Origin: a virus | DNA length: 35,122 nucleotides | Strand: one strand, 5' to 3' | IMG/VR virus record: IMGVR_UViG_3300017745_000028 | Location: 1 to 35,122 of that record | Shown here: in pieces, positions 1,620 through 35,122 of the stretch | How positions within the stretch are numbered: the stretch's first letter is position 1 | Layout of the letters: the number at the start of each line of letters is the position of its first letter | Program-made: the position numbers and the translations under genes | The notes under the pieces: generated by a model | The model's database searches: none | Seen by the model: the letters and a program-made list of their open reading frames with translations, nothing else | What the model was told of the DNA's origin: nothing

Positions 1620-1652
1620 GCGTAGAATAGGTGTAGAAAATAGTAACAACTA

Positions 1653-1952
1653 ATGGAAAATTCAGTTGAGCCAAAAGCATTCCAACTGCCGTTAGAGCTA
1701 CAGTTTTCCATGAGGAAAGCTGAGATGAGAGCCACCGAGATGACTTGGGATCAGCTTTACTTTGCCTTGTTAAGCTTGTATCACCAACGTCTAATGGAAT
1801 GGTATGCTCTCAAGTCTCTTATGGCAGAAGAAAATGTTGATATAGATTTTGATGTTCCAACGGACATTGAACTATTAGATCTTGTCGCCAAATCTAAAAA
1901 ACATCTTGAAGAAGAATTAGATGAAGACGACGATGAACCTCTAGCCATTTAA
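1653..1952 (+). CDS. nblA-like: NblA-like phycobilisome degradation adaptor with acidic tail
   Basis: This 99-residue protein has residues 11-58 that read like NblA, the small cyanobacterial adaptor that delivers phycobilisomes to Clp protease. The match is LPLELQFSMR, then MTWDQ, then LLSLYHQRLMEWYALKSL, against the family pattern LsLEQqFsiR...MshdQ...l..LYxQm...e..yxeL. Unlike host NblA (about 60 residues), it has a ~40-residue Asp/Glu-rich C-terminal extension (residues 60-96). NblA homologues are established in freshwater cyanophages such as Microcystis phage Ma-LMM01 and have been reported from uncultured marine cyanophages. The gene follows the lysozyme gene by 33 nt and overlaps the convergent DUF3310 gene by 12 nt. 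The assignment is from pattern recognition and needs a profile search. Confidence 0.65.
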   Translation: MENSVEPKAFQLPLELQFSMRKAEMRATEMTWDQLYFALLSLYHQRLMEWYALKSLMAEENVDIDFDVPTDIELLDLVAKSKKHLEEELDEDDDEPLAI

Positions 1953-2210
1953 GTTTATTAGCCTGTTTAAATACCAATTAGCTTTCTTTAAGGACTCTGT
2001 TCCTCCTTTTTTACGTTCACGCCACATATACTTAGCTACATTACCTTTTAAATAACCACGGAATTCTTCTGGCGTAAGCTGTGCTTCTATTGCATCTATG
2101 CATTCCACAGCACCAGCTGCATAGTGCATTGGTTTATCTACAGGATCAAAAAAATGTAAAGGCTTTTCAAGAGAAGGCATAGGACAGAAGCCATCAGTAC
2201 ATTCTTCCAT
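1941..2210 (-). CDS. DUF3310 family protein
   Basis: I place the start at the ATG at 2210, giving 89 residues, rather than at 2390. The longer frame would lie on top of the preceding gene, and its first 60 residues look like out-of-frame translation. Residues 29-85 show the DUF3310 signature: HY..GAVECIDAIE, EEFRGYLKGNVAKYMWR, KKGG, and KKANWYLNRLI. This small domain is common in phages and is often labelled a nucleotide kinase without biochemical proof. The start codon sits 8 nt after the stop of the upstream gene, and the stop overlaps the 3' end of the NblA-like gene on the other strand by 12 nt. Confidence 0.8.
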   Translation of the reverse strand: MEECTDGFCPMPSLEKPLHFFDPVDKPMHYAAGAVECIDAIEAQLTPEEFRGYLKGNVAKYMWRERKKGGTESLKKANWYLNRLINLNG

Positions 2211-2218
2211 TGTCTTAT

Positions 2219-2536
2219 TTACTTCCCTGTTTTCGAATTCGGAGAGCCTAACGCCAGTAAGAGGGTTTTTGGCCTCACTGAAACCCCTGGATACCTTTCC
2301 ACTGCTTCCTCCATCGATGGAATATAACCCGTCATACCCGGTCTCTGACCCTCCAGTCCCAGATTCTGTCTCTCCATTCCCTCTTCGCATACTGCTAATC
2401 CTCGATTATACATATCATACAGAGGAATATCATTTTTTTCATTATCTATTTCAGTACCGAAATCTTCTACAGATAAACCTCTACATTTAACTTCGTCTTT
2501 AACGAAATCATTTAAAAAGTTAGTTGCACCAAGCAT
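2219..2536 (-). CDS. Unknown protein upstream of the DUF3310 gene
   Basis: This 105-residue frame has an ATG start at 2536. The first half is acidic and compositionally normal (NDFVKDEVKCRGL...DIPLYDMYNRGLAVCEEGME). The second half is richer in Gly, Pro and Arg. I recognise no family. It is favoured over the overlapping frame because its end lies 8 nt before a good start codon for the DUF3310 gene, making a compact two-gene operon. It diverges from the + strand gene starting at 2577, and the two share a short control region. Confidence 0.55.
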   Translation of the reverse strand: MLGATNFLNDFVKDEVKCRGLSVEDFGTEIDNEKNDIPLYDMYNRGLAVCEEGMERQNLGLEGQRPGMTGYIPSMEEAVERYPGVSVRPKTLLLALGSPNSKTGK

Positions 2537-5773: not shown

Positions 5774-5826
5774 GAGCTAGAATACTGGATCTATAATTGT
5801 TAAATAAGCATGCATATTTATAGGTC

Positions 5827-8484
5827 GTGGCAAATCGTAGAATTAGTGAATTACAAGAACAAGCTGGTCTCTTATTAGCGGATGCTGATCTATTAACGGT
5901 TGTTCGTGTATCTGAACCTGATCCTGCATTAAAAAATAAAAAGTTAACAATAGCAGGAACAAAAGCGTATTTAAATATTCATTATTTACCTAAAACAGGT
6001 GGCACTGTCAGTGGAAACGTAATAATTGAAGATGATTTAACTGTTTCTGGCACAACAACCACTTCAGGATTAGTAGTAAGCAATGAAGCAAATATTAGCG
6101 GAATAGTAGTAAAACAGAATGTAACCGTTACTGGAACGGTCAGCGGAACAAATATTACTGGTGGATCTATATTAGGTACTACTATTCAGGCAGTAACCTT
6201 CACTGGAGGAGTGGTTAATGCGGTAAGTGGTAAGTTTACTACTGTAATAAGCGGAGCTACGATTACTGGGGATACTGCAAACTTTACCAATGTCACAGCT
6301 CAGGATTTTACTGTAGCAGATGACTTTATAGTTGCTGATGACGTTACTATCGGTGGAGATGCCACAGTTACTGGGACTATAACTGGATCTACTATTACCG
6401 GTACATCTCTTTTATTTACTAATGCAACTGCGACAAACATCACAGGAACCACAGTAACTGGAACCACTGCTAATTTCACTACAGTTAATGCAGTTGATTT
6501 AAATGTATCAGATGATTTATTAATAACTGATGACGCCGCTGTAGGAGGTGATCTAACCGTTACTGGAAATACTTCTTTATTAGGTAATACAGATGTAGGT
6601 AATGCGACCAGTGATACTGTAACTTTCACAGCCCGTGCAGATTCTGACGTAGACCCAGCTACTAATGATACTCATGATTTAGGAGATCCTTCCCTTAGAT
6701 GGAAAGGAGTGCATGGTGTTACTCTTACAGCTACTACAGGAACTATAACCAATGTCACGGCAACAAATATTACAGGTACTACCATCACTGGTACTAATGC
6801 TTTATTTACTAATGCAACCGCAGTCAACATCACAGGTACTACTGTTACTGGTACTTCTGCTTTATTTACAAATTCCACAGCAACAAACATAACAGGAACC
6901 ACAATAACTGGTACTACTGGATTATTTACCAACGTAACGGCTCAAGATTTTACTGTAGAAGATGATTTTATAGTTGCTGATGACGTAACTATCGGAGGAG
7001 ATGCAACTGTAACAGGAACCATAGAAGGTAAAGGAACTATATCAGGTGCAATAATAACCGGTGGAACTAAGATATTATCTCCACTAATAACAGGTGCCAC
7101 TATCGTTGGTACTACTACAGTTTCAGGTGCCACTGTTACAGGTACTCATGCACTATTTACTAATGCGACTGCAACCAACATTACAGGAACTACGGTAACA
7201 GGAACTACGGCTAATTTCACTACAGTTAATGCAGTTGATTTAAACGTAACTGATGATTTATTAATAACTGATGATCTAGGTATTGGAGGAGATTTAAGTG
7301 TCACCGGTAATACCACTCTTTTAGGTAATGCAGATATAGGTAATGCAACCAGTGATACTGTTACTTTTATAGCTGGCATAGATTCAGCAGTTGTTCCTGA
7401 CGCAACAGCTAATAATAGAGATTTAGGAAGTAGTTCTAAAACCTGGAGAGCACTCTATGCAACTACTTTAGAGTCGACTACTGGAAATATAACTAATATC
7501 ACCGCAACTAATATCACCGGAACCACAATTACAGGAACCACTGTTAAATATACAAACATAACCGGTGTAAATGTAATAGGTACTACTTTAGTAAGTGGTG
7601 CCACAGTCACCGGTGATACCGCTAACTTCACCAATGTAACGGCTCAAGATTTTACTGTAGCAGATGACTTTATAGTTGCTGATGACGTTACTATCGGTGG
7701 AGATGCCACAGTTACTGGGACTATAGAAGGGAAAGGAACTATATCCGGAGTAACAGTCACTGGAACCCACGGTAAATTCACCAATCTTACAGCTACAAAC
7801 ATTACTGGGACAACAGTCACAGGAACCAGTGCTTTATTTACAAACGCAACCGCCACAAATATTACAGGTACTACCGTTACTGGTGCTTCTGCTTTATTTA
7901 CCAATGCAACAGCAACAAATATAACTGGAACTACAGTTACAGGTACTCATGCACTATTTACCAATGCCACAGCAGTAAATATAACTGGAACCACAGTAAC
8001 AGGAACTACGGCTAATTTCACTACAGTTAATGCAGTTGATTTAAACGTAACTGATGATGTAGTAATTACTGACGACTTAACTGTTACTGGAGTTATTGAA
8101 GGTAAAGGTACAGTATCGGGTGCCATTATTACAGGTGGAACTAAGATATTATCTCCACTAATAACAGGTGCCACTATAGTTGGTACTACCACAGTATCTG
8201 GGGTAACGGTTACAGGTACCCATGCTTTATTCACTAATGCCACAGCTACTAATATCACAGGTACTACAGTTACAGGTACTCATGCACTATTTACTAATGC
8301 GACTGCAACCAACATTACAGGAACTACGGTAACTGGTACAAGTGCTCTGTTCACTAATGCAACAGCGACAAATATAACAGGTACCACGATTACAGGTGGA
8401 ACTATAAAAATGAGTGGTGATACTGTTGCTACTCAAACCTTTGCTGAGGATAGTTCGATTGTGTTTGCAATTGCTCTAGGTTAA
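5827..8484 (+). CDS. Long repetitive beta-rich fibre/appendage protein
   Basis: The GTG start gives MANRRISELQEQAG..., an N-terminus of the type cyanophage tail-fibre-like proteins use for virion attachment (ISEL...LLTVV.VSEPD). From about residue 55 the protein is almost wholly Thr/Gly/Asn/Ala repeat: units near 18 residues such as TATNITGTTVTGTSALFTN, likely coils of a trimeric beta-helix. Larger blocks recur: AQDFTVADDFIVADDVTIGG (three copies), a DLNV..DLLITDD...NATSDTVTF unit (two), and a KGT(I/V)SGAIITGGTKILSP unit (two). I see no S74 chaperone, in contrast to the next two fibres. It ends in a short non-repetitive cap (VATQTFAEDSSIVFAIALG). It is probably an adhesin or whisker-like structure. 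Confidence 0.8.
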   Translation: MANRRISELQEQAGLLLADADLLTVVRVSEPDPALKNKKLTIAGTKAYLNIHYLPKTGGTVSGNVIIEDDLTVSGTTTTSGLVVSNEANISGIVVKQNVTVTGTVSGTNITGGSILGTTIQAVTFTGGVVNAVSGKFTTVISGATITGDTANFTNVTAQDFTVADDFIVADDVTIGGDATVTGTITGSTITGTSLLFTNATATNITGTTVTGTTANFTTVNAVDLNVSDDLLITDDAAVGGDLTVTGNTSLLGNTDVGNATSDTVTFTARADSDVDPATNDTHDLGDPSLRWKGVHGVTLTATTGTITNVTATNITGTTITGTNALFTNATAVNITGTTVTGTSALFTNSTATNITGTTITGTTGLFTNVTAQDFTVEDDFIVADDVTIGGDATVTGTIEGKGTISGAIITGGTKILSPLITGATIVGTTTVSGATVTGTHALFTNATATNITGTTVTGTTANFTTVNAVDLNVTDDLLITDDLGIGGDLSVTGNTTLLGNADIGNATSDTVTFIAGIDSAVVPDATANNRDLGSSSKTWRALYATTLESTTGNITNITATNITGTTITGTTVKYTNITGVNVIGTTLVSGATVTGDTANFTNVTAQDFTVADDFIVADDVTIGGDATVTGTIEGKGTISGVTVTGTHGKFTNLTATNITGTTVTGTSALFTNATATNITGTTVTGASALFTNATATNITGTTVTGTHALFTNATAVNITGTTVTGTTANFTTVNAVDLNVTDDVVITDDLTVTGVIEGKGTVSGAIITGGTKILSPLITGATIVGTTTVSGVTVTGTHALFTNATATNITGTTVTGTHALFTNATATNITGTTVTGTSALFTNATATNITGTTITGGTIKMSGDTVATQTFAEDSSIVFAIALG
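7060..7199 (+). repeat. Identical DNA islands in the repeat fibre (copy 1)
   Basis: Bases 7060-7103 match 8134-8177 exactly, and 7135-7199 match 8269-8333 exactly, about 1.1 kb apart. Most other copies of the same amino-acid repeat differ at synonymous positions, so these islands stand out as recent copies. Confidence 0.8.
8134..8333 (+). repeat. Identical DNA islands in the repeat fibre (copy 2)
   Basis: This is the partner of 7060-7199. Between the two identical islands this copy carries one extra ~18-residue repeat unit (HALFTNATATNITGTTVTGT), consistent with expansion or contraction by recombination. Confidence 0.8.
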
Positions 8485-8911: not shown

Positions 8912-11900
8912 ATGGGATACATAGGAAATGTTACACAGAGCTTTAATGTAAGCTCAGCTATGATCGAAGATCAGGCAATAATTCCTGATAAGATAGCAAA
9001 CTCTGGTGATTTTGCATTTCCAGCTGATATAAGATTGAAGGATGCAGATGCTTCTAATTATGTAGGTTTCCAAGCTCCTTCTACGGTAGGAACAAACATA
9101 GTATGGACATTGCCTTCTGCAGATGCAGGTGCTTCAGGTTATGCGTTAGTATCTAATGCGTCTGGTGTTCTATCTTGGGCAGCAATGTCAGGTGGTGGCC
9201 TAAGTTCCGATGCACAAAAGAACACAGTAGGTGGTACCAATGCAGGTGATTCATTTGATGGAACGAATGCAATAGAAAATACTCTCTTTGGCTATGATGC
9301 TGGAACAGCTATAACAACCGGAGATTATGTAACTGCTGTAGGATACAGAGCTGGCAAAAGTATAACTACAGGTGGTTATGCCACTCTACTTGGAAGAGAT
9401 GCTGGTAAAGCTATTACTACAGGACTCTCAAACGTAGCTGTAGGAATGGGAGCTCTTGAAGCTTGCACTACTGGTGGTAATAATATAGCCATAGGTAGTG
9501 CAGCAGTCCGTACAATAACAACTGCTAATGACAACATTGGAATTGGATATTCAGCATTACAAAACACAACATCAGGATATCAAAATATAGCAATAGGAAA
9601 CAATGCTTGTTGGTCGGGTTCTTTAACTGGAAATCGTAATGTAGTAGTCGGATATTATGCTGCTACAAAAATTACTTCGGGAAGTTATAATTTAATCGCC
9701 GGAGCTCAGGCTGGATCAGAGATTACAACTGGTAATTACAACACAGTTGTAGGCTATCAAGCTGGTAATGCTATTACAACAGCAAGTAACAATTCCTTTT
9801 TTGGTTACCTGTGTGGAGATGCAGTAACAACTAGCGGGTATAACGTCGCAATGGGTAATGAGGCTCTATCAGGATTAACTACCGGATCTTCACATACAGC
9901 TATTGGAAGAGGAGCTAGTAAGACTGTCTCGACAGGTAATTATTCAACAGCTGTAGGAAATAATGCTTTACTTAATGCCACTGCTGGTTTCAATAGTGCT
10001 TTTGGAACTAGTGCTTTACAGACTTGTACCACTGGTGAAATAAATACCGCTATAGGTCAAAGTTCGCTTGATTCACTGTCAACTGGAGTTAGAAACGTTG
10101 CAGTAGGTTATCAAGCTGGTAGTGATTTAACAACTGGATCAAGAAATACTTTTCTTGGAGAATATGCTGGTACAACAGGACAATCAGGCAGTAGAAATAT
10201 ATGTATAGGAAATAATGCAGCCCCAAGTTCATCCGGTGTTTCTAACGAAGTAACCATAGGTGACACTAATATCACTAAGTTCAGAGTTCCAGGTCTTAAC
10301 TTTGTAGTTAAAGATTCTACAGCTACTGATAACTATGTTTTAACAGTAGATGCCAATGGAGAGTGTGGATGGGAAGCAGCAGCTGGTGGTGGTGTAAGTT
10401 CTGATTCTCAAGAAAACACAGTAGGTGGTACTAATGCTGGAAATGCAATAGCCAGTGGTGGTGTATCAAACACTTTCTTCGGTGCTTCTGCTGGGAGAAA
10501 TACTAGTACTGGCGATAGAAACACAGCTATAGGTAGGTACACTCTTTATAATGCCACTACTGCTACTGACAATACGGCTGTTGGTTATAATTCTCTTTAC
10601 GCAGCAACAGGTGATAAGAATACTGCAGTCGGATCTTACGCTGGAAGAAATATTACATCAGGTACAGGCAATACAGTTATGGGATTTCAAGCTGCAGATC
10701 AACTTACAACAGGTAATAGCAATACCGTAGTGGGTCACGAAGCATTAGAGAACTGTACAACTGGTGCTTACAATACTGTTGTTGGTTTGTCTGCAGGTCA
10801 GTCAATAACTACTGGTGGTCAAAACACACTTATGGGACTGTACACAGGAGATGCAATAACAACCGCACAAGAAAACACACTTATGGGTGCTCATGCTGGT
10901 GGAAGCCTGACAAATGGTAGTTATAACACAGTGGTAGGTAAGAGTGCATTACAGAACAGCAATTCTGGTGCTTACAACACAGCAATAGGTAATCAGGCCA
11001 TGTGGTATGGTTCAGCTACAGGCAATCATAATGTAGCTATTGGTAACGCTGCAGGTGCTTATATCACTTCTGGAACAAGAAACGTAGCTGTAGGTAATTA
11101 TGCTTTAGATTCAAACACATCTGCAAGTGATAATACTGCTGTTGGTTATGAAGCTTTACCAGCAAACACAACAGGTAGCAATATAACTGCTGTTGGTTCA
11201 CTTTGTTTGGCAAATGCTGCAACTGGTGGTGGTAATGGTAATACTACTGCTGTAGGTTGCAACGCTGGAAGATATGCTACTGGTGCAAATAATTCTACTT
11301 TAATAGGGTATCAAGCTGGTCATAGAATTACTGGTGGTGATGACTATACATTTGTTGGATACCAGGCTGGTGGTTCACTAGCTGGTTCTGACACTACAGG
11401 ACAAAGTAATAATGGGTTTGGGAATACTGCTTTAGGTAGGCTTACTTCGGGAACACATAACGTAGCCCTTGGTAAAGCTTCAATGACCAACCTTACTACA
11501 AGTAGTAGTAACGTAGCTGCTGGTAACTATTCAATGCAAAATACTACAACTGGAGGAAGCAACGTAGCTATTGGTTACGGAGCTATGCTTTCCAGCACAA
11601 CTGGACATAACTCTGTAGCTGTTGGATTTGAGGCTTTAGAAGATATGACAACTGCAGCTGACAACACTGCTGTTGGTCATTCATCAGGGAAGAATATAAC
11701 AACAGGTTATAAAAATACTGCAGTTGGTCAAAATTCATTAGTATCAGCAACAACACATTATCAAAATACAGCCATTGGTTATGATACACTTCATGATTGC
11801 ACAGGAAATAATAATACTGCTGTTGGATTTCAGGCTGGTCAAAATATAACAAGTGGATCTAATAATGTCACTATTGGATGGCAATCTGGTACTTCTCTCA

Positions 11901-12418
11901 CTACTGGTAGCAGAAGTTGCATAATTGGTTATCTAGTTAATGCCTCAGGTGCTACTATTGGTGATGAATTAGTTGTACATGCTGGTAATGCTACAGTTAC
12001 TGCTTTTGGTAACGGTACAGCTTTTCTTGGAGCACATAGTGCTGGAGGTGGTGCTGGGGCTGTTTACAGAAGTCAAAATAGTTCTTCCTGGAACACTACA
12101 TCTGATGAAAGAATTAAAAAAGATATTACTGATAATACAGATGGATTATCAATTATTAACCAAATAAAAGTTAGAAACTTTAAATATAGGACTGAAGATG
12201 AAATTACAGTAGATTCATTAAAACCTTATTCAAGAATAGACTGTGGAACTGGAAATCATATTGGTGTGATTGCTCAAGAATTAGAGACAGTTGCTTCACA
12301 ATGCGTATCAGATGAGACTACAGGACTTAAATCAGTTGATACTGATGAATTATTCTGGATTATGTTGAATGCAGTTAAAGAATTATCAGCAAAAGTCACA
12401 GCCCTCGAAGCAGCTTGA
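8912..12418 (+). CDS. YadA-head-repeat tail fibre with C-terminal S74 chaperone (fibre A)
   Basis: The 1168-residue N-terminus (MGYIGNVTQSFNVSSAMIEDQAI) leads into an adaptor domain ending near residue 90. Two blocks of 14-16-residue YadA-head-like repeats follow (NTAVGYEAL, NTVVGYQAG, ITTG), giving a left-handed trimeric beta-roll. A hinge separates the blocks (TIGDTNITKFRVPGLNF, then LTVDANGECGWEAAAGG, residues ~445-495). The C-terminus is an S74 intramolecular chaperone of the endosialidase type: the predicted self-cleavage is S1064/D1065 in TSDERIKKDI, releasing ~104 residues that end in a coiled coil, KVTALEAA. Such chaperones trimerise the fibre and are then cut off. It is likely a receptor-binding tail fibre. 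Confidence 0.88.
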   Translation: MGYIGNVTQSFNVSSAMIEDQAIIPDKIANSGDFAFPADIRLKDADASNYVGFQAPSTVGTNIVWTLPSADAGASGYALVSNASGVLSWAAMSGGGLSSDAQKNTVGGTNAGDSFDGTNAIENTLFGYDAGTAITTGDYVTAVGYRAGKSITTGGYATLLGRDAGKAITTGLSNVAVGMGALEACTTGGNNIAIGSAAVRTITTANDNIGIGYSALQNTTSGYQNIAIGNNACWSGSLTGNRNVVVGYYAATKITSGSYNLIAGAQAGSEITTGNYNTVVGYQAGNAITTASNNSFFGYLCGDAVTTSGYNVAMGNEALSGLTTGSSHTAIGRGASKTVSTGNYSTAVGNNALLNATAGFNSAFGTSALQTCTTGEINTAIGQSSLDSLSTGVRNVAVGYQAGSDLTTGSRNTFLGEYAGTTGQSGSRNICIGNNAAPSSSGVSNEVTIGDTNITKFRVPGLNFVVKDSTATDNYVLTVDANGECGWEAAAGGGVSSDSQENTVGGTNAGNAIASGGVSNTFFGASAGRNTSTGDRNTAIGRYTLYNATTATDNTAVGYNSLYAATGDKNTAVGSYAGRNITSGTGNTVMGFQAADQLTTGNSNTVVGHEALENCTTGAYNTVVGLSAGQSITTGGQNTLMGLYTGDAITTAQENTLMGAHAGGSLTNGSYNTVVGKSALQNSNSGAYNTAIGNQAMWYGSATGNHNVAIGNAAGAYITSGTRNVAVGNYALDSNTSASDNTAVGYEALPANTTGSNITAVGSLCLANAATGGGNGNTTAVGCNAGRYATGANNSTLIGYQAGHRITGGDDYTFVGYQAGGSLAGSDTTGQSNNGFGNTALGRLTSGTHNVALGKASMTNLTTSSSNVAAGNYSMQNTTTGGSNVAIGYGAMLSSTTGHNSVAVGFEALEDMTTAADNTAVGHSSGKNITTGYKNTAVGQNSLVSATTHYQNTAIGYDTLHDCTGNNNTAVGFQAGQNITSGSNNVTIGWQSGTSLTTGSRSCIIGYLVNASGATIGDELVVHAGNATVTAFGNGTAFLGAHSAGGGAGAVYRSQNSSSWNTTSDERIKKDITDNTDGLSIINQIKVRNFKYRTEDEITVDSLKPYSRIDCGTGNHIGVIAQELETVASQCVSDETTGLKSVDTDELFWIMLNAVKELSAKVTALEAA
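9101..9182 (+). repeat. Adaptor-domain DNA shared with fibre B (copy 1)
   Basis: About 82 bp encoding VWTLPSADA..ASGYALVSNASG recur at 13149-13230 with only a few mismatches, clustered where Ala-Gly becomes Ala-Ala. Such identity between different genes indicates recent exchange or duplication. Confidence 0.8.
10238..10389 (+). repeat. 152-bp hinge module shared between fibres A and B (copy 1)
   Basis: This matches 14187-14338 over 152 bp with a single synonymous mismatch (GAT versus GAC in TVDANG). It encodes the hinge between consecutive YadA-like blocks. Confidence 0.9.
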
Positions 12419-12728: not shown

Positions 12729-15700
12729 TTGTCTTATATTGGCCAGAGACCAGTCGTAGGCAGATACATTAAACTTGATCAAATATCTAGTGGGTTTAAT
12801 GGATCTAGTACCAGCTTTAGCATGACAGCTGGCAGTCAAGCTGTCTCCCCTGGCACAGCAAGAAATTTATTACTTTCATTAGGCGGTGTAATACAAGAAC
12901 CAGATACGGACTACACTGTCCTAGGATCTACGCTAACCTTCACCACAGCTCCAACTGCTGGATCATCCTTCTTTGGAGTGGTCTTTGGTGATATGCAGTC
13001 TATTGCTACACCTAGTGATGGAACTGTTCTACCAGCGTCTATAGCTAGTTCTGGTGATTTTGCATTCCCAGCCGATGTAAGGTTAAAAGATTCTGATGGA
13101 TCACACTACGTAGGATTTCAAGCTGCCTCTACAGTAAGCAGTAACGTAGTATGGACATTGCCTTCTGCAGATGCGGCAGCTTCAGGTTATGCGTTAGTAT
13201 CTAATGCGTCTGGTGTTCTATCTTGGGCAGAGATGACCAGTGGCATAACAATACAGGAGGAGGGTAGTTCTTTATCTACAGCTGCAACTACTCTTAACTT
13301 TGTAGGGTCCAGTGTAACTGCAACAGGTTCTGGTGCTACAAAGACTATTACGGTTACTGGTGGTGGTGTTACATCTGATGCTCAGGAAAACACAGTAGCT
13401 GGTACAAATGCCGGATCTTCGTTCAGTGGTACGGATGCTCTAGATAATACTCTTTTTGGATATGATGCTGGTGCGGCAATAACAACTGGAGATAATAATA
13501 CTTTCTTTGGACACTCTGCGGGTAAAGCAGTAAATACTGCAGCGGGGAATACCTGCATCGGGTATGATGCTGGAAAATCTATGACTACTGCTGAGAAAAT
13601 GGTAGCTATAGGAACTTATGCTTTAGATTCTCAACAGACTGGATATGGAAATGTTGCTTTAGGGTATGCCGCTTTAAATGGTTCAACTACAGGTCAGAGA
13701 AATATAGCTATTGGCTATTACGCCATGGCTTATGGAAATCTCACTAGCAGTTCACTAGGAAATATAGCTATTGGTGAAGGTGCTCTAGTGAGTGCTAGGA
13801 CCGGCTCTCAATACAATATAGCTATAGGTTATGAAGCTGGATATAATGCAACGACTAATAATAATAACATACTGATTGGATCTAGTGTCGCTAGATATGC
13901 GAGTGGTACTTCTTTTAGTGGTGCTAGCAACGTAGTTATGGGTAATAGTGCCTTTTATTCAGCTACTAATGCTGAATTAAACGTTGCTATTGGCCAGTCT
14001 GCAATGAATTCAATCTCATCTGGAGATTTTAATGTCGTGGTGGGAGCTTCAGCCGGAAGAGATATTACAACCGGTAATAAAAATGTTCTTGTAGGTTATG
14101 AAGCTGGTAATACAGGTACAAACGATCTTACAACTGGGGCGAACAATATAATCATAGGTTATGAAGCTGCTGCTAGTTCAGCAACAGTTTCTAACGAAGT
14201 AACCATAGGTGACACTAATATCACTAAGTTCAGAGTTCCAGGTCTTAACTTTGTAGTTAAAGATTCTACAGCTACTGATAACTATGTTTTAACAGTAGAC
14301 GCCAATGGAGAGTGTGGATGGGAAGCAGCAGCTGGTGGCGTTAGTTCTGATGCTCAAGGCAACACCGTGGGTGGTACTAATGCTGGAGATAGCTTTAGTG
14401 GTACGGATGCTGTTAAAAATACTTTATTTGGATACAATGCTGGAACTGGCATTACCACAAAGGATAACAACACTGCTTTTGGATATGATGCTTTAACTGG
14501 TGATGGAGGTAATAATACTGCTTTTGGCTATGAAGCATTAAAAGTTAATGCTGGCAGTTCATTTTTAATGAATGTAGCAGTAGGAGGTCAGGCTTTAAAG
14601 GCTTTAACTACTGGAAATCAGAATGTGGCTGTTGGACAAAGTGCTGGAATAGCAGCAACAACAGGTAGCAGAAACACTTTAGTAGGTTTAAGTGCTGGTA
14701 CTGCACTAACAACTGGTGGTTATCATACTTTTATTGGCTGGAACTCAGGTTATAAACAGATAACTGGATATGCCAATACAGCCGTTGGATATTATTCTTT
14801 ATGGAACTCTACTGAATCAGAATATAACGTAGCGATAGGATATAGAGCAGCATTAGATATAACCACTGGAGACAATAATGTAGTAATTGGAACTGATGCT
14901 GGTAATACAGGAACAAACGATCTTACAACTGGTTCTAATAATATTCTTATAGGACACGATGCTGCTGCAAGTTCGGCAACAGTAAGTAATGAAGTAACTA
15001 TTGGTGATACTAATATTACTAAGTTCAGAATCCCTGGTATTAACGTAGTCTTAAAAGATAATGGTGGTACTCCAACTGACGGACACGTACTAACAGTTGA
15101 CTCTAACGGAGAAGCTGGTTTTGCTATTTCGAGTTTAGCTAGTGATGCTTTCAACAATACTGTTGGTGGTACAGATGCACTTACAAATGCAAGTAGTGGT
15201 ACAGATGCTAATACAGCTTTTGGTAAACAAGCTTTAACAGCACTTAATGGAGGACAATATTCTGATGCTTTTGGTTATCAAGCTTTAAGGGTTGTTACTA
15301 CTGGAATTTACAACGCTAGTTTTGGTTGTTTTTCTGGATATAGTGTTTCAACAGGAAGTGATAATACTTTATTAGGATATTACTCTGGTAATAACATTAC
15401 TACAGGATCTAATAATATTGTTATTGGTAAGGCTACAACCGCTTCTTCAGCTACGGTTTCCAACGAAATTACTTTGGGTAATAGTAGTATCACGAAGTTC
15501 AGAATACCCGGTCTTAACTTCGATGTAGATTCGTCTGGAATAAATATTACAGCTGCTACTCCAGAAATTTCTTTTAAGGCTAATAGTGTTGCAGATGCAG
15601 GGCAAATAAAAGTATATGAATCAAGTGGTGGTGGAGCTATGGGATTCCTTACCAAAGATACTAGTGGTACTGAGACTGAGCGTTTCCGTGTTAACCCAGA

Positions 15701-16250
15701 TGGAAGATTTTTAGTAGGTACTTCTGTTGAAACTTTTGCAAGAGTTTGTTTTAAAGTTTCTGCTAATAATGAGCAACCATTTTCTATAAATGATTCTAGT
15801 AATACAAGTACTATGACATCTAGGATTGGATTTAGAACAGGTAATAATCAAGTTGGCACAATTAAATCTAGTAGTAGTGCAACACAATACAATACAAGTT
15901 CTGATTACAGATTAAAAGAAAATGCTGTTTCAATATCTGATGGCATTACAAGAATTAAAACTTTAAAACCTTATAAATTTAATTGGATTATTGATGAAAC
16001 AAATACACCTGTAGATGGATTTTTTGCACATGAGGTAAGTGGTGTTGTTCCAGAAGCAATAAGTGGTACGAAAGATAAAGTAGCAGATGCTGCGGATGTA
16101 GCTAGAGGTGATGCAAATGAAGTCGGTGATCCAGTTCATCAACAGATAGATCAAAGTAAACTTGTACCTTTACTTACTGCTGCATTGCAAGAAGCTATAA
16201 CAAAAATAGAAGTATTAGAAACAAAAGTTGCAACGCTAGAAGCAGCATGA
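12729..16250 (+). CDS. YadA-head-repeat tail fibre with C-terminal S74 chaperone (fibre B)
   Basis: A TTG start gives MSYIGQRPVVGRYIKLDQIS, preceded by a purine-rich taggaat; no nearby ATG starts the same domain. Residues 1-95 (GFNGSSTSFSMTAGSQAVSP...LLLSLGGVIQEPDTDYTV) resemble N-terminal virion-attachment domains of phage fibres. An adaptor shared with fibre A follows. Three blocks of YadA-head-like repeats come next, each closed by a TIGDTNITKFR(V/I)PG-type hinge; the last is TLGNSSITKFRIPGLNF. A non-repeat domain (~residues 940-1050) precedes the S74 chaperone, with predicted self-cleavage at S1058/D1059 in SSDYRLKEN. The released ~115 residues end KVATLEAA. It is one repeat block longer than fibre A and probably another receptor-binding fibre. 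Confidence 0.87.
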   Translation: MSYIGQRPVVGRYIKLDQISSGFNGSSTSFSMTAGSQAVSPGTARNLLLSLGGVIQEPDTDYTVLGSTLTFTTAPTAGSSFFGVVFGDMQSIATPSDGTVLPASIASSGDFAFPADVRLKDSDGSHYVGFQAASTVSSNVVWTLPSADAAASGYALVSNASGVLSWAEMTSGITIQEEGSSLSTAATTLNFVGSSVTATGSGATKTITVTGGGVTSDAQENTVAGTNAGSSFSGTDALDNTLFGYDAGAAITTGDNNTFFGHSAGKAVNTAAGNTCIGYDAGKSMTTAEKMVAIGTYALDSQQTGYGNVALGYAALNGSTTGQRNIAIGYYAMAYGNLTSSSLGNIAIGEGALVSARTGSQYNIAIGYEAGYNATTNNNNILIGSSVARYASGTSFSGASNVVMGNSAFYSATNAELNVAIGQSAMNSISSGDFNVVVGASAGRDITTGNKNVLVGYEAGNTGTNDLTTGANNIIIGYEAAASSATVSNEVTIGDTNITKFRVPGLNFVVKDSTATDNYVLTVDANGECGWEAAAGGVSSDAQGNTVGGTNAGDSFSGTDAVKNTLFGYNAGTGITTKDNNTAFGYDALTGDGGNNTAFGYEALKVNAGSSFLMNVAVGGQALKALTTGNQNVAVGQSAGIAATTGSRNTLVGLSAGTALTTGGYHTFIGWNSGYKQITGYANTAVGYYSLWNSTESEYNVAIGYRAALDITTGDNNVVIGTDAGNTGTNDLTTGSNNILIGHDAAASSATVSNEVTIGDTNITKFRIPGINVVLKDNGGTPTDGHVLTVDSNGEAGFAISSLASDAFNNTVGGTDALTNASSGTDANTAFGKQALTALNGGQYSDAFGYQALRVVTTGIYNASFGCFSGYSVSTGSDNTLLGYYSGNNITTGSNNIVIGKATTASSATVSNEITLGNSSITKFRIPGLNFDVDSSGINITAATPEISFKANSVADAGQIKVYESSGGGAMGFLTKDTSGTETERFRVNPDGRFLVGTSVETFARVCFKVSANNEQPFSINDSSNTSTMTSRIGFRTGNNQVGTIKSSSSATQYNTSSDYRLKENAVSISDGITRIKTLKPYKFNWIIDETNTPVDGFFAHEVSGVVPEAISGTKDKVADAADVARGDANEVGDPVHQQIDQSKLVPLLTAALQEAITKIEVLETKVATLEAA
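13149..13230 (+). repeat. Adaptor-domain DNA shared with fibre A (copy 2)
   Basis: This is the partner of 9101-9182. The flanking codons diverge quickly on both sides. Confidence 0.8.
14187..14338 (+). repeat. 152-bp hinge module shared between fibres A and B (copy 2)
   Basis: This is the partner of 10238-10389, with one mismatch in 152 bases. A diverged version of the same hinge recurs near 14992 in this gene, and its protein counterpart is also found in the third fibre near 34960 on the - strand. Confidence 0.9.
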
Positions 16251-20780: not shown

Positions 20781-20806
20781 TGTTTTATATTGTTAACACT
20801 CCTATT

Positions 20807-21241
20807 CTAAGACCTTTTTTTGTAAAAGAAAAATGATTTATGTTCTTCGGATATCACCCAAGGAATGTCCTCATGGGTTGCAAACCATTTCTTATATATT
20901 CTAAATAATTGATCTGATTTTGCACCTTCAGCTCTAAACACTAAAGAATCTCCATCAGGTATCTCTTTTATCCAATTTTTCGCTGCGTTTACAGCTATAC
21001 GTAAAGCTTTTACATCTCTCTTCTTAGGATAAAAGTGGTTTAATTTTTTCACTCTTTTACGTTTAGTTCTTTCATTTATCCAATCATTTAAAGCTCTATT
21101 ACTTTTAGAAGCCACCATTCCTACCAACCAGAAATATTTTCCATTAGGGAATTTAAAAGGTCTTCTTATTACTTTGAATTTATCCCCATTGGATAATTTA
21201 TCCGTTATTACTTTCTTTTTTCTGCTTAATTTACACGTCAT
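20807..21241 (-). CDS. Basic protein of unknown function
   Basis: The ATG at 21241 gives MTCKLSRKKKVITDKLSNGD, 144 residues; it overlaps the 3' end of the small upstream gene by 11 nt. A longer frame from 21289 would overlap it by 59 nt and is less likely. The protein is rich in Lys, Arg and aromatic residues (FKVIRRPFKFPNGKYFWLVG, NERTKRKRVKKLNHFYPKKR, HKSFFFYKKRS) with no membrane helix. Nucleic-acid binding is suggested by charge only. It is probably co-transcribed with the structural gene upstream. Confidence 0.6.
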   Translation of the reverse strand: MTCKLSRKKKVITDKLSNGDKFKVIRRPFKFPNGKYFWLVGMVASKSNRALNDWINERTKRKRVKKLNHFYPKKRDVKALRIAVNAAKNWIKEIPDGDSLVFRAEGAKSDQLFRIYKKWFATHEDIPWVISEEHKSFFFYKKRS

Positions 21242-25171: not shown

Positions 25172-25531
25172 TTACTTAAATATACACAATTTTGGGGAGC
25201 GTTCCAAGTTTCTTACTAAACGAGAATTAGCCCCTAGTTTTATATATAGATGTTCAATTATATTTTCAGGTTTTGCAGTAGGTCCGCAGGTATAAAAATC
25301 CATTGCACAGTACTTATGTTCTGGCCAGGTGTGCATTGAAGCGTGTGATTCTGCTAACAAAGCTAATAAAGTAACCCCTTGAGGTTCGAACTTATTACTT
25401 GTAACCTTTAACACTGTTGCGTTACATAGAGTCAATGAATCTTCGAAGATAGTTTTTAACCCTTCTAGATCATCTAATAACGCAGAGTTGCACCCATAAA
25501 GGTCAATAATTAAATGTTGTCCCAATTGCAT
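25172..25531 (-). CDS. speD: S-adenosylmethionine decarboxylase proenzyme
   Basis: A bacterial/archaeal-type AdoMetDC of 119 residues. The self-cleavage site is E61-S62 in LLAESHASMHTWPE, where Ser becomes the pyruvoyl cofactor. H67 and C82 (DFYTCG) are the expected processing and catalytic residues. The enzyme makes decarboxylated SAM, the aminopropyl donor for spermidine. It is a well-known auxiliary gene of T4-like cyanophages and may raise polyamines for DNA packaging or for photosystem and translation support. It ends 15 bases before the glycosyltransferase start and follows the primase-helicase gene by 3 bases, so it is part of one operon. Confidence 0.92.
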   Translation of the reverse strand: MQLGQHLIIDLYGCNSALLDDLEGLKTIFEDSLTLCNATVLKVTSNKFEPQGVTLLALLAESHASMHTWPEHKYCAMDFYTCGPTAKPENIIEHLYIKLGANSRLVRNLERSPKLCIFK

Positions 25532-33362: not shown

Positions 33363-35122
33363 CTAAGCAGCTTCTAGTGCTGCAACTCTTGTTTCTAATG
33401 CAATATTCTTTGCAGATAGTTCTTGTAGTGCTTTTACTAATACAGGAATCAAGTTACCTTGTTTCGCTTCTAGTTTATCTGGGTTATTATCCGTTACCAA
33501 ATCTAAATACTCTGAACCTGTTTGTGCTTCCTGAAGTTCTTGTGCAATAAATCCAGCCCTTACAGTACCATCATTTGTATCTGGCTCTCTTCTTTGCCAT
33601 TTAAATTTAACTGGTCTAAGAGTATTGATAAGATCTAGTCCAATCGGTAAGTCAATAACATCTGTTTTATCCCTTCCATCAGATAGAGAACTAATTGATG
33701 TTTGATTACAACGTAAACTTGTTATTTGTGAATTTCCAAGAGTTACTTCATTGGTAGCATTACTTGCACTAGGACGAGCTTCATATCCAAGAAGAGTACA
33801 ATTAACTCCATCAACAAGATTACTACTACCCCCAGTAGCACCAGTCCTATATCCTATGCAAGTATTATTATCTGTGTATGTTATATGTTTCCCTGCTCCC
33901 TCACCAATACTAGTGTTTCTGGAACCAGTAGTAAGTGCATTCAGTGCTTCATGACCAACAGCAGTAACACCTTGTGCAGTTGTCGACGTGTACATTGAAC
34001 CTTTACCTACAGCAACATTACTATGTCCAGTTGTGCTTGCCTGTAAAGCCTCGTATCCAATCGCAGTATTATTTGCTCCGCTAGTAATTTCTTTTGCAGC
34101 ATGATAACCCACAGCGGTTATGGCAACAGTGGAGTCTTGTGCAGCGAATTTACCTATTGCTATTGCACCGGTAGTAGTTGCAAGTGAATAACCAGTGGAT
34201 CTTCCTATACAAATATTATCATCTCCGCTTGTAATTCCGTATCCAGCCTGAGAACTCAAGGTAACGTTGTATTGAGCACCACCACCAGAGTTATGCATGG
34301 TGAATGTTCCAATAGCGATATTCATGGTGCCGCTATTGTAAGCTCCCGCATAGTAGCCTATACAGACAGATTGGTCTCCAGTGCTGCCTCCAGTACAAGA
34401 GTGATATCCAATTGCTACGTTATAGCTTCCTGTTGTATTTCCTCGTAACGCAAATTTACCAACACCAACGTTATAACCTCCTGTTGTGTTATTTCCACCT
34501 GCCAGTCTACCTAAAAATGTATTGTCTATACCAGTTGTTATAGAATCTCCAGCATCATGTCCAAAGCAGCTATTATCATCTCCACTTGTTATTGCTGTTC
34601 CAGCATCAAAACCGAATAAAGTATTTTGAATAGCATCGGTTCCTGTAAAAGAATCCCCTGCGTTGCTACCACCTACTGTGTTTTCCTGAGCATCAGAACT
34701 TACACCACCACCACCACTGGCTGCTGCCCATGTAGTACCGCCTGAACCATCTGACTGTAAGAATTGCCCACTAGAACCATATCCTGACGGTAAAACAAAA
34801 GTAAGATTACCAGAGAAATCAGCATGTGCAGGTGCTTTTATACTTGCATAATGAGCATTACTTGATTCGCAATACCATCTGACTTCTGAACGTGTCCCAC
34901 CATTTTTAAGAGTTATAATTCCATCAGTCAACTCAAAATTTATACCCGGAACTCTAAATTTAGTAATACTTGAATTACCAATAGTTACTTCATTTGATAC
35001 CGTTGCACTACTTCCTAATGCTTCGTGACCAATTACTATATTATTTGAACCTGTAGTTAAAGCACCACTACTAGCGTAACCAGCTTGATGTCCAACTAAA
35101 GTATTATCTATTCCTGTAGTGA
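33363..35122 (-). CDS. C-terminal part of a third YadA/S74 tail fibre (5' end outside window)
   Basis: The frame is open from 33363 to the window end, so at least 585 residues of a larger protein are present; a TTG at 34931 is internal, because the same hinge found in fibres A and B (TIGNSSITKFRVPGINF) precedes it in frame. It contains an adaptor-like segment (SGNLTFVLPSGYGSSGQFLQ), a long block of YadA-head-like repeats (NTAIGYEAL, NTSIGEGAG), and a C-terminal S74 chaperone. The chaperone has a predicted cleavage in SLSDGRDK at bases 33680/33681, releasing ~105 residues ending RVAALEAA. It is on the opposite strand from the other two fibres and separated from them by 17 kb. Confidence 0.87.
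   Translation of the reverse strand, partial: TTGIDNTLVGHQAGYASSGALTTGSNNIVIGHEALGSSATVSNEVTIGNSSITKFRVPGINFELTDGIITLKNGGTRSEVRWYCESSNAHYASIKAPAHADFSGNLTFVLPSGYGSSGQFLQSDGSGGTTWAAASGGGGVSSDAQENTVGGSNAGDSFTGTDAIQNTLFGFDAGTAITSGDDNSCFGHDAGDSITTGIDNTFLGRLAGGNNTTGGYNVGVGKFALRGNTTGSYNVAIGYHSCTGGSTGDQSVCIGYYAGAYNSGTMNIAIGTFTMHNSGGGAQYNVTLSSQAGYGITSGDDNICIGRSTGYSLATTTGAIAIGKFAAQDSTVAITAVGYHAAKEITSGANNTAIGYEALQASTTGHSNVAVGKGSMYTSTTAQGVTAVGHEALNALTTGSRNTSIGEGAGKHITYTDNNTCIGYRTGATGGSSNLVDGVNCTLLGYEARPSASNATNEVTLGNSQITSLRCNQTSISSLSDGRDKTDVIDLPIGLDLINTLRPVKFKWQRREPDTNDGTVRAGFIAQELQEAQTGSEYLDLVTDNNPDKLEAKQGNLIPVLVKALQELSAKNIALETRVAALEAA

Follow-up and report, generated by a model that had tools for sequence, protein, structure and literature searches.

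The locus studied here raises the question of whether a cyanophage carries, behind its lysozyme gene, a protein that dismantles the light-harvesting antenna of its host. In cyanobacteria this is the role of NblA, which has been described as an adaptor that brings phycobilisome proteins to ClpC (PMC4103541; PMC7966870). The 35,122-base virus record, the whole of which we call the window, contains a single copy of a short gene that had been predicted, from the DNA letters, to encode an NblA-like protein with a novel acidic tail. The explanation that we favor is that its product, P0001, is a divergent NblA-type phage ClpC adaptor of the S-EIV1 cyanophage lineage that promotes phycobilisome breakdown, a function that we infer from kinship and regard as fairly probable.

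A conserved gene behind the lysozyme gene

The gene and its surroundings have the following layout in the window:

1653..1952, + strand: NblA-like gene encoding protein P0001; ATG start, 99 aa plus stop (from the translation)
1692..1736, + strand: predicted helix 1 of the NblA-like hairpin, residues 14-28, with the L.LE.QF.MR motif (AlphaFold2 core model and column comparison with NblA)
1746..1829, + strand: predicted helix 2 of the hairpin, residues 32-59, with MTWDQ at its start and LYHQ inside (AlphaFold2 core model and gap-free profile alignment to NblA residues 27-54)
1830..1886, + strand: conserved linker, residues about 60-78, consensus EN[VI].[IL][DE][FW]D.PT[DQ][IL]EL..L (alignments; dN/dS 0.18), not in host NblA
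1887..1949, + strand: acidic C-terminal tail, residues about 79-99 (D/E counts of the tail; dN/dS 0.40)
1623..1629, + strand: conserved TAGAATA box, -10-promoter-like, 24 bases 5′ of the start codon
945..1619, + strand: lysozyme gene, the invariant upstream neighbor (Pfam Phage_lysozyme, E 2e-16)
1941..2390, - strand: DUF3310 gene, the convergent and invariant downstream neighbor (Pfam E 7.7e-19)

The motifs on which the original prediction relied are all present in P0001 (QFSMR at residues 17-21, MTWDQ at 30-34, LYHQ at 42-45, and LKSL at 53-56), and the gene does sit after a lysozyme gene, which occupies positions 945-1619 (Pfam E 2e-16) immediately 5′ of it. The phage-like codons that had also been pointed out were judged not to be diagnostic. 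The acidic extension placed at residues 60-96 is indeed Asp/Glu-rich, with D or E at 16 of 37 residues; however, it is really made of two parts, a conserved linker, ENVDIDFDVPTDIELLDL (residues 60-77), and a fast-evolving acidic tail (about residues 79-99).

Using an IMG/VR scan, we found at least 111 relatives of P0001, 80 of which were retained, and a second scan with S-EIV1 as the seed yielded 26 loci, two further divergent clades among them. One isolate has a relative: in Synechococcus phage S-EIV1 the ‘hypothetical protein’ AHV82245 is 58% identical to P0001. Family members are 95-105 residues long (57 distinct sequences). The lysozyme gene is found directly upstream, ending ≤150 bases away, in 75 of the 75 loci with enough upstream sequence, and a DUF3310 match lies downstream on the opposite strand in 81 of 81 loci. 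Median pairwise dN/dS is 0.11 overall and rises from 0.08 in the hairpin core to 0.18 in the linker and 0.40 in the tail. The gene is under purifying selection (dN/dS of about 0.08 in the core), and the open reading frame is a real, selected gene that is fixed in the lineage and not a recent acquisition. In a tree with NblA, every viral sequence lies beyond one long branch (support 100/100, 3.67 changes per column) with the NblA of Ma-LMM01 apart, the exact placing of the viral family being unsure because the alignment is short and the branch long. The viral NblA-like proteins are one monophyletic subfamily, fixed behind the lysozyme gene. The acidic tail that had been called novel is real, yet this phage shares it with the whole S-EIV1 lineage, in which the trait is fixed.

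A TAGAATA-type box is a further constant feature. The pattern TA[GA]AAT[AG] was observed 5′ of the NblA-like gene in 48 of 48 distinct upstream regions, 37 of which have the exact TAGAATA, compared with a shuffle expectation of 1.6%. In S-EIV1, 4 of the 6 [CT]TAGAATA sites lie 13-31 bases 5′ of a gene start. The box suggests that the NblA-like gene has a promoter of its own, and it may be a phage promoter of the S-EIV1 lineage. TAGAATA also occurs between genes at 5778-5784 and 20803-20809 of the window.

The gene ends the late structural and lysis gene block. This invariant place behind the lysozyme would also suit a lysis- or virion-associated protein with a function unrelated to the antenna, whose acidic tail binds a basic partner, and many structural and assembly proteins of phages have acidic tails. 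We consider such a role improbable: the putative promoter directly 5′ of the gene speaks against it, the reciprocal profile evidence given below favors NblA, and 16 family members had no lysis or virion family match in Pfam, PHROGs, or NCBIfam. PHROGs and NCBIfam did not recognise the viral family at all with these 16 members.

Several other features of the window were observed alongside the gene. A second acidic stretch lies in the late gene block of the NblA-like gene: upstream, the final part of a reading frame at 2-596 includes a long D/E run (DRDEDEDEEKDV...DDDDDDEDEYDD). Three long proteins, encoded at 8912-12418, 12729-16250, and 33363-34931, have in common internal repeats of the NT.IG..AG..ITTG type and similar C-terminal ends, which suggests a set of related tail-fibre or adhesin genes within a single phage; the protein of 33363-34931 contains a Peptidase_S74 chaperone domain (E 1e-10). 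An 885-aa protein of many near-identical TNATATNITGTTVTGT-like repeats, at 5827-8484, is perhaps a repetitive fibre. An S-adenosylmethionine decarboxylase gene at 25172-25531 (speD, Pfam E 4.8e-34) adjoins a primase-polymerase, and since S-EIV1 has the same pair, it is fixed in the lineage.

Kinship with NblA over the helix-loop-helix core

Homology of the P0001 family to NblA over the helix-loop-helix core is supported by sequence comparison. Four tests, namely a Pfam search, a search of the PDB with the family profile, a comparison of profile with profile, and a blind reciprocal scan of genomes, support the kinship well. P0001 alone matched the Pfam NblA family with an E of 0.013 and 16.4 bits, its residues 11-57 falling on profile positions 1-47 of 50. 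All 16 diverse members scanned matched NblA, with a best E of 4.7e-5 compared with 0.0025 for the next family. DUF4030 scored slightly above NblA for P0001 alone; it was rejected because, unlike NblA, which matched all 16 members, it matched just 7 of them, at an E of 0.0025 at best. The profile search against PF04485 that the original prediction had proposed as a check gave a mixed outcome: every member matches NblA, but the scores of 16.4 to 20.6 bits (16.4 for P0001 and 17.4-20.6 for the other virus records) fall under the curated cut-off of 25 bits, which counts against the NblA-adaptor reading.

A profile of the viral family found Anabaena NblA (1OJH) as its top match in the PDB, with an E of 5.8e-4 and collinear over 49 residues. 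For scale, phmmer with Anabaena NblA finds S. elongatus NblA at an E of 8.6e-4 and the NblA of 2Q8V at 0.011. Comparison of the viral family with NblA by hhalign gave probabilities of 96.2%, 94.8%, and 93.1%, depending on the alignments used. The strongest test of kinship is the blind reciprocal scan, in which the viral profile was run on six-frame translations of 117 cyanobacterial genomes; 15 matches were obtained at E ≤ 0.1, and the top 14 of these 15 are genes that PF04485 calls NblA in the same 117 genomes.

The match of P0001 is above chance. Scored against a profile built from 57 NblA sequences, P0001 gave 23.5 bits, whereas the best of 21,000 shuffles reached 15.6 bits and the best unrelated ORF, among 5,165 ORFs from the viral loci and the window, reached 7.2 bits. 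With the NblA profile, scores drop to 10.7-12.5 bits in the two viral clades that diverge most, and this too counts against the adaptor reading. Weak profile scores can arise from short helical domains, and a short amphipathic hairpin might have come to resemble NblA by chance, with a tail that mimics DNA or the C-terminal tip of SSB; several freshwater members end in a D/E-rich ...QPF or ...APF, and the SSB of S-EIV1 itself ends in DEPF. We find such convergence very improbable, however, given that the genome-wide reciprocal matches are NblA genes in 14 of 15 cases, that shuffles and unrelated ORFs score far lower, and that the marine clades have PLAI, PLSI, or DFLTA at their ends. Mimicry of the SSB tip by the tail was rejected as a candidate in its own right, as the tips do not covary (one phage has an LTPFFG tail and an SSB ending in KEPF) and the marine clades have no PF.

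The fold of NblA has been described as a helix-loop-helix (PMC4103541). With an alignment of 34 family members, AlphaFold2 predicted helices at residues 14-28 and 32-59, plus a low-confidence helix at 69-94. The core alone gave the same two helices with a mean pLDDT of 86, and of 87-92 within helix 1. This predicted helix-loop-helix of the viral core agrees with kinship to NblA. A comparison of predicted structures had been suggested for this protein, and in the single-chain core model a short first helix and a long second one stand at the NblA positions. When the PDB was searched by Foldseek with the full model and with the core, no NblA match was returned, an outcome that for so small a hairpin speaks neither for nor against the kinship; a search of viral structures with the full model returned no useful match.

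Divergence from NblA and the proposed function

Cyanobacterial NblA (PF04485; 1OJH, 3CS5, 2Q8V, 2QDO) and the viral family are collinear over a helix-loop-helix of 47-51 residues. They have in common the L.LE.QF motif, the M-S/T-x-D/E-Q start of helix 2, and LY.Q within helix 2. In a column comparison, the N-terminal LxLExQF motif is the part of the viral family best conserved with NblA, and in Anabaena numbering L7 is kept in 95%, E10 in 72%, F13 in 88%, and L34 in 100% of the viral sequences. Three replacements count against the adaptor reading: the near-invariant Gln11 of NblA has become Leu, His, or Met, Lys53 (97% K/R in NblA) has become Ala, Gln, or Glu, and Arg/Lys44 has become Glu49 in all viral sequences. 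The viral family also has highly conserved positions of its own, which are P13, Q17, E24, W32, L35, R46, E49, A52, and E60.

The largest difference is at the C-terminus, where NblA has a short end and the viral proteins have 40 residues of linker plus acidic tail. That host NblA has no such extension, as the original prediction stated, was borne out by 56 cyanobacterial NblA sequences, none of which has an acidic tail after the hairpin. The viral tails contain 8-14 D/E in their last 21-30 residues and finish in short, hydrophobic tips (PLAI, PLSI, LQPF, LAPF, DFLTA, or similar); AHV82245 is the sole S-EIV1 protein with an acidic end of this kind. Since the family scores under the 25-bit cut-off and has replaced Gln11 and Lys53, we do not file it in PF04485. 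Judged by its sequences, it is a separate, long-branched subfamily, sister to NblA, and we call it NblA-like.

If P0001 is an antenna-degrading adaptor, its N-terminal hairpin would, like host NblA, bind both the ClpC chaperone of the host and phycobiliproteins, and ClpCP would degrade the light-harvesting antenna during infection. With the antenna lost, amino acids would be released and less light would be absorbed. The tail, being negatively charged, might tune the contact with ClpC, the contact with phycobiliproteins, or the adaptor's own degradation. For NblA itself, the N-terminal motif has been reported to contact ClpC and the C-terminal part phycobiliproteins (PMC4103541). Docking on ClpC is the safer part of this proposal because no part of the viral family is better preserved than the N-terminal motif; the client is less certain because the C-terminal end of helix 2 has been rewritten and is followed by new conserved sequence. 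Some family members may have hosts that lack phycobilisomes, which also counts against the adaptor reading.

Uneven conservation of the two ends can be explained in another way, in which an NblA-derived adaptor still engages ClpC through its N-terminal motif and has been retargeted so as to deliver a different host or phage protein. Recognition of this new client would fall to the changed helix 2, the added linker, and the acidic tail. In picocyanobacteria without canonical NblA, candidate clients would include phycoerythrin-type rods, a photosystem protein, a defence protein, or one of the phage's own proteins. Retargeting would fit an N-terminal part that is conserved with NblA next to a C-terminal part of helix 2, the reported phycobiliprotein-binding part of NblA (PMC4103541), in which Lys53 is absent and Arg44 is reversed to Glu49. 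It would also fit the gain of a conserved linker and the very long viral branch of 3.67 changes per column. However, coevolution with picocyanobacterial phycobiliproteins would give the same pattern, and the invariant Gln11 is lost from the N-terminal part as well, so we hold retargeting to be possible and on the whole unlikely.

Hosts and comparison with known phage NblA proteins

The host of S-EIV1 is a Synechococcus. We scanned 191 genomes of a small-genome cyanobacterial family (about 1.3-2.5 Mb), which on the basis of genome size was taken as Cyanobiaceae/picocyanobacteria, the host group of S-EIV1, and found NblA above the Pfam cut-off in 0 of the 191. With the preferred adaptor reading, the phage would therefore supply a function that its hosts lack or have only in divergent form. 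A closer host relative of the viral family was sought in the same 191 genomes with the viral profile, which found nothing convincing. Small-genome cyanobacteria (L227, L229, and L230), taken to be picocyanobacteria, have a 44-aa open frame, KTSVTNMQPNQVQQFQLLTFRYLL..., with a partial NblA match, which might correspond to the divergent nblA-like gene that has been reported in marine Synechococcus. These frames were rejected as close relatives of the viral family, their match to the viral profile being no better than chance.

S-EIV1-like phages are widespread, and their genus-level group makes up 3.3% of mapped marine cyanophage content (Nishimura 2017, PMC5332604). If the adaptor reading is true, an antenna-degrading adaptor is a fixed gene of the S-EIV1 lineage, one isolate of which has a cultured host. 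The reading is directly testable in the S-EIV1 system.

Phage NblA is already known from Ma-LMM01, MaMV-DC, PaV-LD, and marine metagenomic variants; in reported tests freshwater and marine phage NblAs degrade phycobilisomes, the freshwater proteins being linked to phycobilin loss and one metagenomic marine variant degrading phycobilisomes (PMC9602691). The freshwater proteins of Ma-LMM01, MaMV-DC, and PaV-LD resemble the S-EIV1-type family in being phage-borne NblA cores and, unlike it, have no acidic tail. The cyanobacterial NblA profile gives the Ma-LMM01 protein 53.9 bits, and the viral S-EIV1-type profile gives it only 4.2 bits. A tblastn search of phages with Anabaena NblA gave no match, and the Microcystis phages came up when another NblA was used as the query. 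Among marine cyanophages, Nadel et al. 2019 reportedly assigned an NblA by distant homology. S-SCSM1 ORF237 (QFG06501), a marine phage protein that has been assigned to NblA, is 54 aa long without a tail and gave no match with the NblA profile, where P0001 scores 23.5 bits. In the marine podovirus Syn5, nothing was found with the NblA or the viral profile. For the S-EIV1 group, hli and ptoX have been listed and nblA has not (Nishimura 2017, PMC5332604). Phage NblA itself is known; what appears to have gone unrecognised is the present variant and the fact that the S-EIV1 lineage carries it. AHV82245 of S-EIV1, which is not annotated as NblA and ends in LAPF instead of PLAI, is the orthologue of P0001, in the same place behind the lysozyme and with the same linker and acidic tail.
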